Positions 8,458 to 14,769 of a stretch of DNA of 64,000 nucleotides are shown here, in pieces. The stretch is from the NCBI RefSeq assembly GCF_000466385.1, contig NZ_KE952827.1:13796-77795 (forward strand). Direction: 5' to 3'. The first letter of the stretch is position 1. Each line of letters starts with the position of its first letter. The notes below the pieces were generated by a model, which was not told where the DNA came from, did no database searches, and was given only the letters and a program-made list of their open reading frames with translations. The translations under genes were made by a program, and so were the position numbers. Origin of the DNA: Aneurinibacillus aneurinilyticus ATCC 12856 (GTDB taxonomy: Bacteria > Bacillota > Bacilli > Aneurinibacillales > Aneurinibacillaceae).

Positions 8458-9903
8458 TTATAACACACTGTGTTCGTATGCTCGACGAGAAACAGATGAT
8501 TCCGGCTGAAACGGCGGCAGCTTCCAGACAGGCCGGATATCCGAATATTCATCCCACTGAGTCCGAGATAGGATGTGCTGTGCGAACGGTTCTAAATACA
8601 TAGCATAATGCGCATACATTTCCGTTTCACGCAATTCATCCCACAAGCGGGGAACAAGCGGAAACAATGTATCACGATCGCCATGGTAGAAGGCATGGTG
8701 CAGCTCCTGATTCAGGAATGGCCGTGTCCGAAGCTCCCTGTATGACAGAGCGATTAGATGACTTAATGCCAACACGCCACGCGTCACTTTAGGGGACACA
8801 AGAAAACTTGGCAGTGTTCGATATTCAAATCCACCGTGGAACTGATAGCGCATATCTCCCAATTGTCCATAACGTGGTCTGCGGGCAAGCGAACGAGGAC
8901 TTTCCAGCATAAATACAGACAGTGCCAAATATCCATCCAAGGCACGCAACCATTGCGCATTCGGTACAGCTCCGCTGAAATGGATATGACCGCCAATCGG
9001 ATACCCGGTCAAAGGCATGCCTCCTGCTACCCATTCGATATGCGGTGAACCTGTTTTCCGAATGGCTATCATCATCGTGCGGTACAGATTACGAAACAGC
9101 TCCCTGGCATCAGCCGCGGGATCTGGCCGCAGCTCCGCCAACGGGCGAAGCTTCTTCGTCTCGTCGCCCCGCATACAGACACGATCACAACCGACCGGCC
9201 CTTCCTTCGGAAAGCAATCGGAAGCCAGCACCAAATTCCCCGCCTGATTGCGAAGTATAAATTCTATATCAGCTCCCAGCATAATGGGCGTATCAGAGGC
9301 ACAATACTCCCGGCAGAAATTTTCAATACGGGAAATAAACTTTCGGGCTAATGTGCGGGTCATGTGAAAAGTAGTAGCGACATTAAGTACCCGCATCGTT
9401 CCATGCATATCAACACCCAAATAAACCGCCGCAAAGTCCAGTCCCAATGTGTACACACTCCGGATTGCGTATTGTTTAAGGCGGCGAATTTCTCTTGTTT
9501 TCTGCTCGGGGTCTATCTCTTCGTATCTGTCCTCTCCTTCTTTAACACGGTTATTCAACCAGAGACGACGTCCAGACGAACGATACAGACTAATCATATC
9601 CTGCTGAAATACAATCGCGATATAGCGGCGTATCGTGGCTGTAGCAGACGTGTCAGCTATGCCATGAGGGATTCCGCTATCGGAAAGCATTCTGGCTGCA
9701 ATGGTAGAATCGGAGGCATTCGCAATCGCTTCCTTTCCGTTTAACACTACCGTATATCGCTCACAAGCGGAAAGCCCTGCTTCGCCCCATTGCACCACGA
9801 AATCCGGCTGTTCAGTTACAAAAGGTCCATATTTTCCCAACCATAGATCAAGCAAGGGTGCATCGGGAACATTCGCCTGACTGTACAGCAGAAAACAAGT
9901 CAT
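8458..9903 (-). CDS. Amidoligase-like (phiEco32-type COOH-NH2 ligase) domain protein
   Basis: A 481-residue protein. From about residue 205 it resembles the ATP-grasp-like COOH-NH2 amidoligase family first noted in phage phiEco32: an acidic motif in IMLGADIEFILRNQ, an arginine/acid patch AELRPDPAADARELFRNLYRTM, and the signature GGHIHFSGAVP. The N-terminal 190 residues are family-specific. Such enzymes are predicted to form amide bonds between carboxyl and amino groups, as in peptide tags or cross-links; no substrate is known here. It lies between cotE and mutS, where B. subtilis has nothing, and its stop overlaps a possible mutS ATG. The position suggests, but does not show, a spore-coat or cell-wall role. 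Confidence 0.6.
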   Translation of the reverse strand: MTCFLLYSQANVPDAPLLDLWLGKYGPFVTEQPDFVVQWGEAGLSACERYTVVLNGKEAIANASDSTIAARMLSDSGIPHGIADTSATATIRRYIAIVFQQDMISLYRSSGRRLWLNNRVKEGEDRYEEIDPEQKTREIRRLKQYAIRSVYTLGLDFAAVYLGVDMHGTMRVLNVATTFHMTRTLARKFISRIENFCREYCASDTPIMLGADIEFILRNQAGNLVLASDCFPKEGPVGCDRVCMRGDETKKLRPLAELRPDPAADARELFRNLYRTMMIAIRKTGSPHIEWVAGGMPLTGYPIGGHIHFSGAVPNAQWLRALDGYLALSVFMLESPRSLARRPRYGQLGDMRYQFHGGFEYRTLPSFLVSPKVTRGVLALSHLIALSYRELRTRPFLNQELHHAFYHGDRDTLFPLVPRLWDELRETEMYAHYAMYLEPFAQHILSRTQWDEYSDIRPVWKLPPFQPESSVSRRAYEHSVL

Positions 9904-9987: not shown

Positions 9988-10308
9988 TTAATCCAGGAAG
10001 GAGTCTGGATCAAGGTCTGCGAAATCATCCAGCTCCTCAAAGTCGTCGGTAAAGACATCGTCTTTTTCCCCGTCATCGCAAATATCGCAAACCCAGACGC
10101 ACAGCTTCGTCTCTCCGACGATTTCCACCGTGTATTCACGTTCTACCGTAACTACGATTCCACCACCAGGTCTTATCTTGGCTTCCACACAGTTTGGTTC
10201 CTGCGTTACACGCGCCGTTACTTCCACATCTCCACGCAAATTCGGGTCATAGTAGGAAAGGGGAACGACTTCGACAAACTTAGCGGTATCCTTCAACACG
10301 GTGGTCTC
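9988..10308 (-). CDS. cotE: CotE, C-terminal part (3' segment of a split gene)
   Basis: This is the last 106 codons of the outer spore coat morphogenetic protein CotE, cut from its 5' part by a 4,010-bp element. Going 5' to 3' the frame reads ETTVLKDTAKFVEVVPLSYYDPN and then the CotE hallmarks RVTQEPNCVEA and VEIVGETKLCVWVC, ending in an Asp/Glu-rich tail (DDFEELDDFADLDPDSFLD), like B. subtilis CotE. Upstream in frame, AATAACAACACA precedes it and is in turn preceded by a TAG stop inside the element. The segment has no start codon with an SD of its own, so it should be silent unless joined to 14317-14552. CotE directs outer-coat assembly around the forespore from the mother cell. Confidence 0.9.
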   Translation of the reverse strand, partial: ETTVLKDTAKFVEVVPLSYYDPNLRGDVEVTARVTQEPNCVEAKIRPGGGIVVTVEREYTVEIVGETKLCVWVCDICDDGEKDDVFTDDFEELDDFADLDPDSFLD

Positions 10309-10327
10309 TGTGTTGTTATTCTAATTG
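10289..10327. other. Left hybrid attachment site of the cotE element
   Basis: The junction holds the direct repeat TCTGTGTTGTT (10307-10317, plus strand), also at 14317-14327. On the chromosome side lies one attB-type arm, TGTTGAAGGA on the minus strand (10298-10289). On the element side lies one attP-type arm, CAATTAGAATA on the minus strand (10327-10317). Both arms begin ten positions from the same centre, between 10307 and 10308 (GA on the minus strand), the likely crossover dinucleotide. Confidence 0.8.
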
Positions 10328-10375
10328 TATAAGATAAGCTCGCGGACATCTTCACTCGTGCTTGAACAAAAACAA

Positions 10376-10427
10376 AAAGCCTGACCGTCCACCCTGTTTC
10401 CCATAACAGGATACTAAGCCAGGCTTT
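10376..10427 (-). terminator. Terminator after the element's chemoreceptor gene
   Basis: On the minus strand AAAGCCTG pairs with CAGGCTTT, followed by TTGTTTTTG. A second nested stem (CCTGTT/AACAGG) fills the loop. It isolates the chemoreceptor transcript from the downstream cotE segment. Confidence 0.7.
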
Positions 10428-10441
10428 ATATTAAATCGCGC

Positions 10442-12178
10442 CTAGAGAGTAAACTTACGAAGCTCTTCATGCAGGTTTTTGGACAAGTCTGCCATTTCGC
10501 ATGCACTCGCAGCGATTTCCTGTACGGTAGCCAACTGCTCTTCCGCTGCGGCCGCTACTTCCTGTGATGCGGATGAAGCTTCCTGAATGATGGTCGCAAT
10601 CTTCTGGATTCCCTGCAGTACATTCTCTACCGTTCCGTTCATATTCTCCAGCATTTCCTTCATGTTCCGTGAGTCTATCTCCGTTACCCGAACATGCTCG
10701 ACAATCGCATCCAGTGACTCCCCACCCTGACGAATCATTTGCACCTGTTGCCCGACAGCCTGCTGGCTATGCCGCATAGAACGCATGGTTACTTCAGTTT
10801 CCTGCTGTATAGCCTGTGCAAGTGTTGTAATCATTCCCGCTGCTGTGTTTGTCTGTTCTGCCAATTTCCGCACTTCATTGGCTACGACAGCGAATCCGCG
10901 GCCATGTTCGCCAGCACGGGATGCCTCAATGGTTGCATTTAACGCCAGTAAATTCGTCTGGCTGGAGATGTCCGTAATAACAGTAATAATATTACTGATT
11001 TCGACGGAACGGTGTACAAGCTGTTCCATTGTTTTACAAGCTTTTTCTACAGCCTCCGAAATAGCAGGAAGATATTCTATCGCTTGCTGAATCGCCTGCT
11101 GCCCTTCATTTGAAATGGTAACCGCAGCTAATGCGTTTTTCATATTGCGTTCGGCCTGTTCTTTACCGGAAGCAACAAATTCGCTTGCCTTTCCCATCAT
11201 TCGAACAATCTCTTCAGCCTGATCGCTCTGCCTGTTGCTTCCTTCCGCCACTTCCTGAATAGTCTGGGCAACACGTGTGGATGTATGCTCCGACTGTTCA
11301 GTCGCTTGCGACAGGTGTTCTGCCGCAGCAGCCACATGATCAACCATTTGCTGTACTTGACGCAGAAAGCTTGCCAGTGTATCTTCCATTACTTGAAACG
11401 AATGCGCCAATTTGCCTACTTCATCATTGCGTTTCTTGAATACGCCCTCTTTTTCAATTTGAATCGAAAAATCACCGGCCGCAATTTTTTCGGCTGTCTC
11501 TGTTACAACACGAAGCGGACGTAAACTTTTGCGCAAGAAGAACGCAAACAGAACAATAGAACCAACAATCAACAGTATGCTTGTCATCAAAAAAGCCGGG
11601 AGGGCAGAAGAAATCACTTCTTTAATAAGACTCGTAACAAATGGAGCGCTTACATCAACCTCTAACAAGCCGATAACCTGTCCGGTCTCATCTTTAATTG
11701 GGACGATAGCCGGTAAATAATCACCGTACTTTTCATCTCGAACAATACTGCTTCCTATTTTTTTTCCTTGAAATATTTGTGACGCCTCTGCATAGCTCAG
11801 CACTTCAGTCGATTCTCCAATCGGGGAAGTAACGTCCGATCCTTTGGGCTGTCCATCAATCATAATATTTAATTCATTCTTGCCCAGCGCTATCGTACAA
11901 ACATACAAGGCACCGATTTTTTCCCGTACATCGTTTAATGTATTTCGTATATTCCAATAGTCTTCATTTTCTACCGGGTTGGCAAGGAATCGTTTATATG
12001 CCTGCACGTCCACATACTTTACTGCGTTTTCAGCAATTTGTATACTGTTCTCTGCTACTGTCTGCTCTACAGCTTCCATAACACCTCGGTAAGAAAAAAA
12101 GGCACTAATTCCTACTACAAGAACGACAAGCACAGTAGAAAGCAGCGAAATTTTCCCCCGTAACCCCACATATTTCAC
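10442..12178 (-). CDS. Methyl-accepting chemotaxis protein carried by the element
   Basis: A 578-residue transmembrane chemoreceptor. Residues about 10-30 form TM1. Residues 31-190 are an extracytoplasmic ligand-binding region of single-Cache-like length ([18 protein letters not shown] near its end). Residues 191-214 are TM2, followed by a HAMP domain (about 215-270) and a long methyl-accepting coiled coil with the conserved tip sequence [26 protein letters not shown]. It should signal through CheA/CheW. The start is GTG (MKYVGLRGK) after AAAAGG. It is cargo of the cotE element and is unusual there: a motility sensor in a segment probably lost from the mother cell during sporulation. The ligand is unknown. 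I found no convincing sigma-D promoter. Confidence 0.9.
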
Positions 12179-12493
12179 ACACCTTTTCCGTCAGATTATT
12201 CATACCTTGGCGAAAGATAGCTCCGCTCTTTAGTTATATAATGTAGATTTTTACAGTTGCAAACTCAATGCCAAATAAACGCAATATATTAATATTGAAA
12301 ACAACCAACTTAAAGAGAAAGGTTCTTTTATACCTAGTTCTTTATGTCCTTCCCTATCGGTTTATAACAAAATATACAAGCCAAAATTCATAATACAAAA
12401 ATGTTAAGCAGGGTAATTGGCAGCAAAAAACTATGCAAAGAAACATACATTATTCAAAAAGGAATAAAAAGCAGGCGCAAACCTGCCTTTTGC
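12179..12493. other. AT-rich gap inside the element
   Basis: These 315 bases lie between the recombinase stop and the chemoreceptor start. They hold the recombinase terminator (12466-12489) and, by position, the chemoreceptor promoter. TTGCAA followed about 16 bases on by TATATA on the minus strand is a weak sigma-A candidate. No ORF with an SD was seen. Confidence 0.5.
12466..12489 (-). terminator. Terminator after the recombinase gene
   Basis: On the minus strand GCAGG-TTTGCG-CCTGC is followed by TTTTTATTCC, directly after the recombinase stop codon. Confidence 0.65.
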
Positions 12494-14035
12494 TTAGTTA
12501 TACAAATCAAACGTAAATTTTATACTCGTAATCGTTGTTTTATCATATATATCAATTCGTTCAATCAGCTTATGGAACAAAGCACGCAGATGCTGAATGT
12601 CATCCATCGTAATTTTATGGCGCTTATCCAGCACTTCTTCTAGCGTGTATTTCTTTGATCCTGTTTTCTTGCTCTCTTCAATTTGCTTATGAACAGCTAT
12701 TACCTGCTGCTCTATCGCTTGAATTTGATTTTTTAGTACAGATAGAACCTCACGTAGCACGTCTTGCTCAAGCACATCACTGTTTGTAGCGGCATGTACC
12801 TGCTTCTTCTGCAGCTTTCTTTTTTGTTCCACTAATAACTGTAATTTTTCCGTAAGTGTAGTGATTTTTATCTGATTACGCGAAATCAAAAACCGTTTTG
12901 GAGATTTCTTAATTTCATTCATCAGCAATTCAAAAAGCTCCTTCTCCAATGCTTTCGCCGGAACCGGGTCATGTACACAGGCAGATTTTCCATATTTATG
13001 ATTGCGGCCGCATTTGTAATAACGGTAATGGTAGTTCTCATTGTCAGGCTTTGTGGAACGAATAGATACCATTCCCGCACCGCACCTGGCACAATATAAA
13101 ATACCGGACAACGGATATTTGGCCCGATTCGAGGTTTTCCCTACTTTTTCCTGTCTTTCCCTCATAATCTCTTGCGCTTGTAAAAATAAGCTTCGCTTAA
13201 TAATTGCTGGATGTGCATCTTTTGCGACGATTGGATTTCCCGTTTCAATATACTTTCTATTTTTTTTGATTAGATTTTGATTTGCATCATAGACCCGCTC
13301 CAGCTTTGCACGTCTCGTTCCATACACCACGTCACCTACATAGGCTCTATTTTCCAGTATTCTCCGAATCGTAGCCTGCTGAAACGGATTGTTGTTAACT
13401 GTTTTGTAGCCTTTTTCATTTAATCGATTCGCTATGGCTAATGTACCTATCCGCTCATGCACATACCAATGAAAAATTAAGCGTATCACTTCTGCCTGAA
13501 TATCATCGATCTCCAATCGATGTGTTTCACAATCGCGCCGATACCCAAACGGAATTTTAGAAGCCGGCCACTTTCCGGAACGCGCTTTTTCGCGAAATCC
13601 GGCCGATACCCTACTGCTAATGCGCTCAGACTCTATTTCGGCCATGAAGTTGCTAATCTTGAATAAAAGCTTGGATTCAGCTCTTTTTGAATCGTACCCA
13701 TCATTTGATCGGATTCTAACTCCAGACGCTTCGAGAATCCTTACGATTTTCAGGTTCTCTTCTTCATCGCGTCCCATACGTGTAATCTCTTTAAACAGAA
13801 CTACTTTAAAAATTCCCTTTTTAGCATCCTCAAGAAGTCGCTTCATTGCCGGTCGTTCCAATATTGTCGTATAGTATCCGCTATAACCTTCATCTATATA
13901 TACAAGCTTTGCATCGGTATAATAATCTGTCGTAAAGTTTCGGCACATATAATCTTTCATTAATGAAATTTGGTGGTCAATGGAGTCTCCCTGCTGATCA
14001 GTGGAAACCCTCGCATAGATGGCAACAGGTATCAT
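12494..14035 (-). CDS. Large serine recombinase of the cotE element
   Basis: A large serine site-specific recombinase of about 513 aa, the SpoIVCA/phage-integrase class. The catalytic resolvase domain (about 1-150) contains IYARVSTDQQGDSIDHQ, with nucleophile Ser11, and KEITRMGRD and FMAEIESERIS. The Recombinase domain follows (about 165-270; IPFGYRRD...GTLAIANRLNEKGY). A zinc ribbon has CARCGAGM and YKCGRNHKYGKSAC, then a long coiled coil (about 390-470) typical of this class. It should cut at attL/attR 10308 and 14318 and restore cotE. The start is uncertain: MIPVAIYARVS has GGGTGAT just upstream, but an in-frame ATG at 14074 overlaps the stop of the preceding ORF as ATGA and would add 13 residues. 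Confidence 0.93.
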   Translation of the reverse strand: MIPVAIYARVSTDQQGDSIDHQISLMKDYMCRNFTTDYYTDAKLVYIDEGYSGYYTTILERPAMKRLLEDAKKGIFKVVLFKEITRMGRDEEENLKIVRILEASGVRIRSNDGYDSKRAESKLLFKISNFMAEIESERISSRVSAGFREKARSGKWPASKIPFGYRRDCETHRLEIDDIQAEVIRLIFHWYVHERIGTLAIANRLNEKGYKTVNNNPFQQATIRRILENRAYVGDVVYGTRRAKLERVYDANQNLIKKNRKYIETGNPIVAKDAHPAIIKRSLFLQAQEIMRERQEKVGKTSNRAKYPLSGILYCARCGAGMVSIRSTKPDNENYHYRYYKCGRNHKYGKSACVHDPVPAKALEKELFELLMNEIKKSPKRFLISRNQIKITTLTEKLQLLVEQKRKLQKKQVHAATNSDVLEQDVLREVLSVLKNQIQAIEQQVIAVHKQIEESKKTGSKKYTLEEVLDKRHKITMDDIQHLRALFHKLIERIDIYDKTTITSIKFTFDLYN

Positions 14036-14070
14036 CTCATCACCCTTTAATCCGAATGTAAAAAAGACCG

Positions 14071-14202
14071 TCATTCCGACGGTTCAATTATTTCTACTTC
14101 GACATCATCTCCGTATTTTTCTTTATGGAAAAGAATAATCTGTTCAATGAAGTATGCTGAGATCGGCTCCTTGCCATATTCGACGGTAAGAATTCGAATC
14201 AT
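14071..14202 (-). CDS. 43-aa ORF coupled to the recombinase (candidate directionality factor)
   Basis: This short ORF (MIRILTVEYGKEPISAYFI, ending EIIEPSE) is acidic, has no cysteine and ends with a TGA that overlaps the ATG at 14074 in the recombinase frame, so the two are likely translationally coupled. GGTGAT, the same SD-like sequence seen before the recombinase, stands four bases before the ATG; another ATG at 14208 would add two residues. I recognise no family. Small proteins next to serine recombinases often are recombination directionality factors (SprB of SPbeta is 58 aa), so that role is possible, but it is inferred only from position and size. Confidence 0.55.
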   Translation of the reverse strand: MIRILTVEYGKEPISAYFIEQIILFHKEKYGDDVEVEIIEPSE

Positions 14203-14219
14203 GAGCATCACCCGATACT

Positions 14220-14249
14220 ATCTGTATGAAGCAGGACGCAGTAAAATAT
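14220..14249 (-). promoter_or_regulatory. Putative sigma-E-type promoter for the small ORF and recombinase
   Basis: On the minus strand ATATT (14249-14245) and CATACAGAT (14228-14220) resemble the -35 (ATATT) and -10 (CATACA) of mother-cell sigma-E promoters. The spacer is 16 bases, slightly long. The transcript would begin just before the SD of the 43-codon ORF, giving a very short leader. The fit is partial and untested. Confidence 0.4.
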
Positions 14250-14297
14250 CTTGTACGCATTTCTGCCGCCTGTACTTATTTTTTGCAGTTCTTCTTG

Positions 14298-14336
14298 CAA
14301 TTAGGATACGTTCATATCTGTGTTGTTGTTGTAGGA
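14298..14336. other. Right hybrid attachment site of the cotE element
   Basis: Direct repeat TCTGTGTTGTT at 14317-14327 (plus strand). The element-side arm is TATCCTAATTG on the minus strand (14308-14298), inverted partner of the left element arm (10 of 11 bases). The chromosome-side arm is TCCTACAACA on the minus strand (14336-14327), inverted partner of the left chromosome arm (9 of 10). The shared centre lies between 14317 and 14318. Confidence 0.8.
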
Positions 14337-14552
14337 ATACCAAATGTTGATTTCGTACGTTCCACTCACCTCGACTGTCTCGCCTACCTTGTCAGCCCGG
14401 TATGTGTGGTTAATTACCCAAGCTCCCAGGATAGTGACCGTTTTGTGGGATGGGGTAACGGTATGGGTGGCTTCGGAAAACTTGCGTCCTCGGCCACAAA
14501 CGGCTTTGGTGACGATTTCCCGAGCCTGCTTCTCTTTATTTGTACTCGACAT
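14301..14552 (-). CDS. cotE: CotE, N-terminal part (5' segment of a split gene)
   Basis: The 5' part of the outer-coat morphogenetic gene. The ATG at 14552 has GGAGGAGGT eight bases upstream. The product begins MSSTNKEKQAREIVTKAV and has the conserved CotE blocks GRGRKFSEATHTVTP, LGAWVINHTY and GTYEINIWYSY. Codons 1-78 (through NNNT) are true cotE. Then the frame enters the element, reads DMNVS and stops, so an unexcised chromosome would yield an 83-residue truncated CotE. Joined to 10308-9988 it gives 184 aa; B. subtilis CotE has 181. The flanking genes (miaB-ricA before, mutS-mutL after) are those of B. subtilis cotE, which confirms identity. Confidence 0.93.
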   Translation of the reverse strand: MSSTNKEKQAREIVTKAVCGRGRKFSEATHTVTPSHKTVTILGAWVINHTYRADKVGETVEVSGTYEINIWYSYNNNTDMNVS

Positions 14553-14584: not shown

Positions 14585-14700
14585 ATTTGTATGCAGGGCA
14601 ATCATCACGGGTGCAACACAAAGTGCTACAAGCCGCCTATATCGCCCTGATCAGCACCACAACTGATAATCCATAAATATGCAGGGCAAGCGCCCGGGGT
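14585..14700 (-). promoter_or_regulatory. Duplicated mother-cell-type promoter-like elements upstream of cotE
   Basis: Two similar blocks on the minus strand each read GCACC, 16 bases, then CATA, with TTGCCCTG directly before CATA: -35-like ACC at 14612-14610 with -10-like CATACAAAT at 14593-14585, and ACC at 14700-14698 with CATATTTAT at 14681-14673. AC plus 16-17 bases plus CATA is the sigma-K pattern, and CATACA also fits sigma-E. In B. subtilis cotE has successive mother-cell promoters. The distal half of each -10 fits poorly, so this is a suggestion. Confidence 0.4.
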
Positions 14701-14769
14701 GCTTGGGTATAAAGTATAAGCATTGCAAGGGAACTTGCTTGCTTTCAAACAAAAACTTTCTTAATCCAT

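Follow-up and report, generated by a model that had tools for sequence, protein, structure and literature searches.

A small phage-free element with a large serine recombinase splits cotE in Aneurinibacillus aneurinilyticus: a candidate skin-type rearrangement

Introduction

Interrupted sporulation genes have been described in open-access papers for sigK, spoVFB, spoVR, spsM, gerE, kamA and yabG, and those elements whose architecture resembles the one presented here are excised during sporulation (PMC5595907, PMC4191935). In skin of Bacillus subtilis (skr-spoIVCA) a small directionality-factor ORF lies immediately upstream of the large serine recombinase (LSR) and a mother-cell gene is interrupted and restored in frame (PMC6957869), with counterparts here in a candidate factor ORF and in the split cotE, but skin targets sigK and is a phage-derived element of 48 kb, whereas our element has 4 kb and the recombinase as its only phage-type gene. 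The gin element in gerE of B. cereus ATCC 10987 is likewise not phage-derived, has a short core with inverted repeats and is excised by the LSR GirC together with the 42-aa factor GirX (PMC5595907); it differs in its length of 28.6 kb, its three recombinases and its target. SPbeta in spsM of B. subtilis (SprA/SprB) provides the nearest solved LSR structures and a small sporulation-specific factor, the 58-aa SprB, that is transcribed apart from the recombinase (PMC4191935), but it is a large active prophage and SprB shows no detectable sequence similarity to the small ORF described below. Also vfbin (spoVFB), vrin (spoVR), phi3T (kamA) and yin (yabG) carry recombinases and are located inside mother-cell sporulation genes (PMC4191935, PMC6957869, PMC10747680), yet they are prophage-like and have other target genes in other species.

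The DNA analysed here is a stretch of 64,000 nucleotides from A. aneurinilyticus ATCC 12856 (the window), in which cotE is interrupted on the minus strand by an element of 4,010 bp. CotE is the director of outer-coat assembly in B. subtilis. With an element inside its gene, coat formation would hinge on a rearrangement of the DNA, and a coat-assembly gene would join the targets published so far. Our reading, to which we give a probability of roughly 0.8, is that of a minimal phage-free skin-type element that would be excised in the mother cell by its LSR and a small protein.

Results and Discussion

A first-pass annotation had claimed that cotE is split by a 4,010-bp element and that joining yields a frame of 184 codons, and both statements could be confirmed. 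The N-terminal segment matches positions 2-74 of the Pfam CotE profile (E 1e-36), the C-terminal segment matches positions 72-175 (E 4e-26) on the same strand, the element size is exact when counted from crossover to crossover and the rejoined cotE is an uninterrupted frame. The ends given for the 5' segment (14552-14317) also stand, but not its description as codons 1-78, as codon 78 ends at 14319 and positions 14318-14317 are already the start of codon 79:

14317..14552, minus strand: cotE 5' segment, codons 1-78 and the GA of codon 79 (Pfam CotE, rejoining)
9988..10308, minus strand: cotE 3' segment, codon 79 (GAG) to stop (Pfam CotE, rejoining)
10307..14316, minus strand: cotE-intervening element, 4,010 bp

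No other CotE was found in the 5.31-Mb genome, so that a second intact cotE, which the annotation had named as an argument against its own reading, does not come into play. The flanking genes had been described as those of B. subtilis. This holds for ricA (Com_YlbF) upstream, where by inspection miaB is also located, and for mutS, followed by mutL, downstream, but a COOH.NH2-ligase gene is inserted between cotE and mutS. This gene (window 8458-9903) belongs to the phage phiEco32-like COOH.NH2 ligase family; B. subtilis is not known to have such a gene at that place.

To see how relatives compare, we used a family sample of 11 genomes, all of them with CotE and two genera showing the split. Including the window genome, cotE is split at the same codon in five of the 11 (four genomes of Aneurinibacillus and one of a second genus) and intact in the other six; with four other genomes split at that codon the position is more than chance. 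The elements measure 4,010 bp in the window genome, 10,923 bp in G003 and 17,158 bp in G006, and in these three genomes both halves of cotE lie on one contig in the same orientation. In G005 (A. thermoaerophilus L 420-91, same genus group) and G007 (A. tyrosinisolvens LL-002) the halves are found on separate contigs, so that their linkage is unproven, a point against the excision model, and in G005 ricA does not adjoin the cotE 5' half. The check for an uninterrupted cotE in related genomes, as proposed with the annotation, turned out in its favour: intact relatives carry the rejoined sequence, and in G002, the nearest of them by sequence (94% identity in the region compared), the undisturbed site reads exactly as the rejoined one. 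The split relatives carry different elements at the same base. Outside the family no interrupted cotE was seen in a class sample of 399 genomes, 269 of them with CotE; an apparent split in G080 was rejected, as it is one continuous frame.

Within the 17-kb element of G006 a type I CRISPR-Cas system is encoded (Cas1, Cas2, Cas3 and Cas7 by Pfam, with 28 occurrences of a repeat), as is an aldehyde dehydrogenase. In G005, by inspection only, one cotE half has aromatic-degradation-like genes as neighbours on its contig; the other half, on its own contig, is accompanied by FHA, phosphatase, kinase and VgrG-like genes.

The annotation had also reported an 11-bp direct repeat at both breaks. The repeat, AACAACACAGA at 14327-14317 and 10317-10307, is indeed present but is longer than the true core, as in the other four elements attL and attR have no more than about 2-5 bp in common at this place. 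In an ungapped alignment of attL and attR from all five elements the letters common to every pair are GA, with which the codon for Glu-79 begins. Within the 11-bp core of the window GA is also the best centre of symmetry with 16 symmetric positions, compared to at most 10 for any other dinucleotide; the repeat here is thus a short core with extra similarity. Together, att symmetry and the five-element comparison place the crossover at GA, 14318-14317 and 10308-10307:

14317..14327, minus strand: attL copy of AACAACACAGA, crossover dinucleotide GA at 14318-14317
14296..14303, minus strand: attL inverted arm TAATTGCA, 13 bp from GA
10307..10317, minus strand: attR copy of the 11-bp repeat, crossover dinucleotide GA at 10308-10307
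10322..10329, minus strand: attR inverted arm TACAATTA, 13 bp from GA

In each of the five attP sites reconstructed in this way the arms TACAATTA and TAATTG(T/C)A flank GA at a distance of 13 bp, with the second arm reading TAATTGAT in G005. Over the five elements 90 of 150 positions of this dyad are symmetric, a value reached by none of 20,000 arm shuffles, and cutting at GA followed by rejoining gives an uninterrupted CotE in each of the five split genomes. Neither an excised attP (circle) nor a joined cotE occurs in the assemblies, which we read as neutral.

Besides the cotE segments the element contains three genes only, a small ORF (described below), the LSR and a gene for a methyl-accepting chemotaxis protein (MCP):

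12494..14035, minus strand: large serine recombinase, 513 aa, with Resolvase, Recombinase and Zn_ribbon_recom domains
10442..12178, minus strand: methyl-accepting chemotaxis protein, 578 aa, cargo

The three domains bear out the annotation, which had named a large serine recombinase. The LSR is intact in all five split genomes (513-516 aa, 62-76% identical to that of the window), and among 15 related genomes of the order, which are not independent trials, it is present in 5/5 with a split and 0/10 with an intact cotE. Its nearest solved structures are YokA (SprA) of SPbeta and a YokA-YotN (SprA-SprB) fusion. The LSR matches a PHROGs integrase family, its best full-length match in phage records being 31% identical, and a scan of IMG/VR gave no relatives. 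MCP relatives (54-55% identical) are found in the cotE elements of G003 and G006. Phage structural or replication genes, which besides an integrase would mark a prophage, are lacking in the element. With skin-type elements it shares the interrupted mother-cell sporulation gene, the frame restored by precise joining, an LSR of its own and bounding att sites whose short core is flanked by inverted arms; under the strict definition, with sigK as target, it falls outside, as its target is cotE.

An insertion that simply destroyed cotE and left two decaying remnants might be tolerated, since cotE mutants still sporulate: in B. subtilis the gene is not required for viable spores. However, neither half contains a stop or frameshift in any of the five split genomes, and recombinase, small ORF and att arms are all intact. 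Conservation of the cotE halves extends to the protein level. Between the split genomes G003 and G006, 9 nonsynonymous and 22 synonymous differences separate the 3' halves (Fisher p = 8e-10), and 3 and 7 separate the 5' halves (p = 0.002). Both halves of cotE as well as the LSR and the 43-codon ORF are under purifying selection, which speaks against a dead insertion, a reading that we regard as very improbable; decay of the halves had been named beforehand as an observation that would speak against a rearrangement. As a promoter or start of its own is not evident for the 3' half, its selection implies that it is still expressed within CotE. This presumes that the element was already present in the common ancestor of G003 and G006, which is likely because MCP, small ORF, LSR and aldehyde dehydrogenase are common to both. 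Even less credible than a dead insertion is a function of the halves as two separately made polypeptides in the absence of rearrangement. Both halves are open frames, and an in-frame GTG occurs in the 3' one, but this GTG has no evident ribosome-binding site, the split falls inside one Pfam domain and the codons gained at the 5' break vary between genomes.

For a directionality factor of the proposed excision the small ORF just upstream of the LSR is the natural candidate, because skr is located upstream of spoIVCA and GirX and SprB are similarly small. The features of this region and of the cotE upstream region are:

14071..14202, minus strand: small ORF of 43 codons, candidate recombination directionality factor (conservation, selection, predicted fold)
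14067..14083, minus strand: terminator-like hairpin between small ORF and LSR
14220..14256, minus strand: conserved block GTACAAGATATT...CATACAGAT upstream of the small ORF, putative mother-cell promoter region
14585..14614, minus strand: conserved box GCACCC...CATACAAAT upstream of cotE, putative promoter (cotE-upstream alignment)
14673..14701, minus strand: second conserved box CACCCC...CATATTTAT upstream of cotE, putative promoter (cotE-upstream alignment)

The small ORF is kept in all five cotE elements, with a transposase-like gene between it and the LSR in G003. Five LSRs of more distant kinship, namely a second copy each in G003 and G006 and the single copies of G123, G176 and G117, likewise have a similar small ORF directly upstream. 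The product of the small ORF is predicted to adopt a beta-alpha-beta fold (mean pLDDT 81, from only three sequences). No relation to YotN/SprB or any solved protein was found by sequence or fold, and the lack of detectable kinship to a known directionality factor counts against the excision model.

The block upstream of the small ORF, GTACAAGATAT...CATA, can be aligned in four elements, with a departing -10 in G007, and its -10 form CATANNNAT is common to this block and both conserved boxes upstream of cotE. In B. subtilis cotE has a sigma-E (P1) and a sigma-K promoter (P2) (PMC517825). Agreement of the block with the sigma-E and sigma-K consensus is partial, which together with the departure in G007 again counts against the excision model and makes its assignment as a mother-cell promoter a weak one; a sigma-70 promoter scan gave matches no commoner than in shuffles. 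The hairpin between small ORF and LSR is reminiscent of SPbeta, where sprB is transcribed alone in sporulation.

Distant relatives of this LSR/small-ORF pair split two further genes, yhbH in two genomes and an IDEAL-domain gene in one, and joining restores the frame each time. In G176 and G117 the pair is located just before the C-terminal part of yhbH (DUF444), while the N-terminal part is found about 54 kb (G176) and 15.5 kb (G117) upstream on the same strand and contig:

G176:C10:12941-68423: split yhbH locus
G117:C1:2926801-2943320: split yhbH locus

In both genomes the rejoined yhbH reads ...AMMDTSGSMGVFEKY..., and the attP of the G117 element has the arms TTTAGTTAATTA and TAATTAACTAAA 13 bp from the central dinucleotide; G176 is less clean, and in G117 the 3' part of yhbH is shorter than normal. 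In B. subtilis DUF444/yhbH is near a SpoIIID-bound region (PMC517825). In G006 a second LSR of the family splits the small IDEAL-domain gene with an element of 4,407 bp (locus L047, 3070-7477), and joining at ATAAAGGTAA restores the frame; the 13-2-13 dyad was sought at this element and not found. For the second LSR of G003 the 5' part of an IDEAL-domain gene was not found in the stretch examined.

Taken together, the excision model builds on the splits of one codon by different elements and the rejoined sequence in intact relatives, on the attP dyad in all five elements, on the co-occurrence of LSR and split cotE and the selection on both halves, on the conserved small ORF placed beside the LSR like skr of skin (PMC6957869), and on the LSR relatives in yhbH and the IDEAL-domain gene with their restorable frames. 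In this model cotE would serve as attachment gene of a small phage-free integrative element, which the LSR would have integrated at GA in codon 79. In the sporulating mother cell the LSR, with the 43-aa protein as putative directionality factor, would then recombine attL with attR, releasing a circle of 4,010 bp and leaving a seamless cotE of 184 codons for transcription by the mother cell, and the genome of the forespore would retain the element.

The main competitor is a mobile island that merely targets cotE and is excised at a low, unregulated rate without any developmental programme, leaving most sporulating cells without CotE. In its favour, proof of presence extends to the LSR and the att sites only, the evidence for a promoter is weak, the site is intact in six members of the family, and one LSR relative resides in the IDEAL-domain gene, which has no known sporulation role. 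On the other hand, the 3' half of cotE is under strong selection though interrupted, the same LSR family also picked yhbH, a sporulation gene, and precedents of the same layout are timed to sporulation (PMC4191935, PMC5595907, PMC6957869). We consider this island unlikely, if less so than a dead insertion, and prefer regulated excision in the mother cell.

It might even be, as a tentative idea that we hold somewhat less probable than its opposite, that the LSR/small-ORF pair is the core of phage-free islands of Bacilli specialised in genes of the terminal mother cell, with cotE (Aneurinibacillus), yhbH (two genomes of another family) and the IDEAL-domain gene as targets. Such islands would exchange their cargo freely (chemoreceptor, CRISPR-Cas, catabolic genes) and persist through the spore, since the dying cell would be the only one that they leave.

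A full-text search of open-access papers gave no description of a cotE or yhbH element, in line with the earlier statement that none was known for cotE. We rate as new here cotE as target, the small phage-free element and a recombination unit that has, as far as we found, no described relative. With 4 kb, one recombinase and a putative 43-aa factor the element is a compact system for probing the timing of such elements, and five species with different elements at one identical base, together with the yhbH relatives, offer a natural series for asking why mobile DNA favours mother-cell genes.

Two minor observations concern the same gene families. An LSR relative with a small ORF is located in G123:C15:118000-131000, where its end adjoins an Hsp20-like gene, and G006 has, beside an intact yhbH elsewhere, a further C-terminal piece of yhbH, interrupted by three stop codons, at G006:C1:2383057-2383452.
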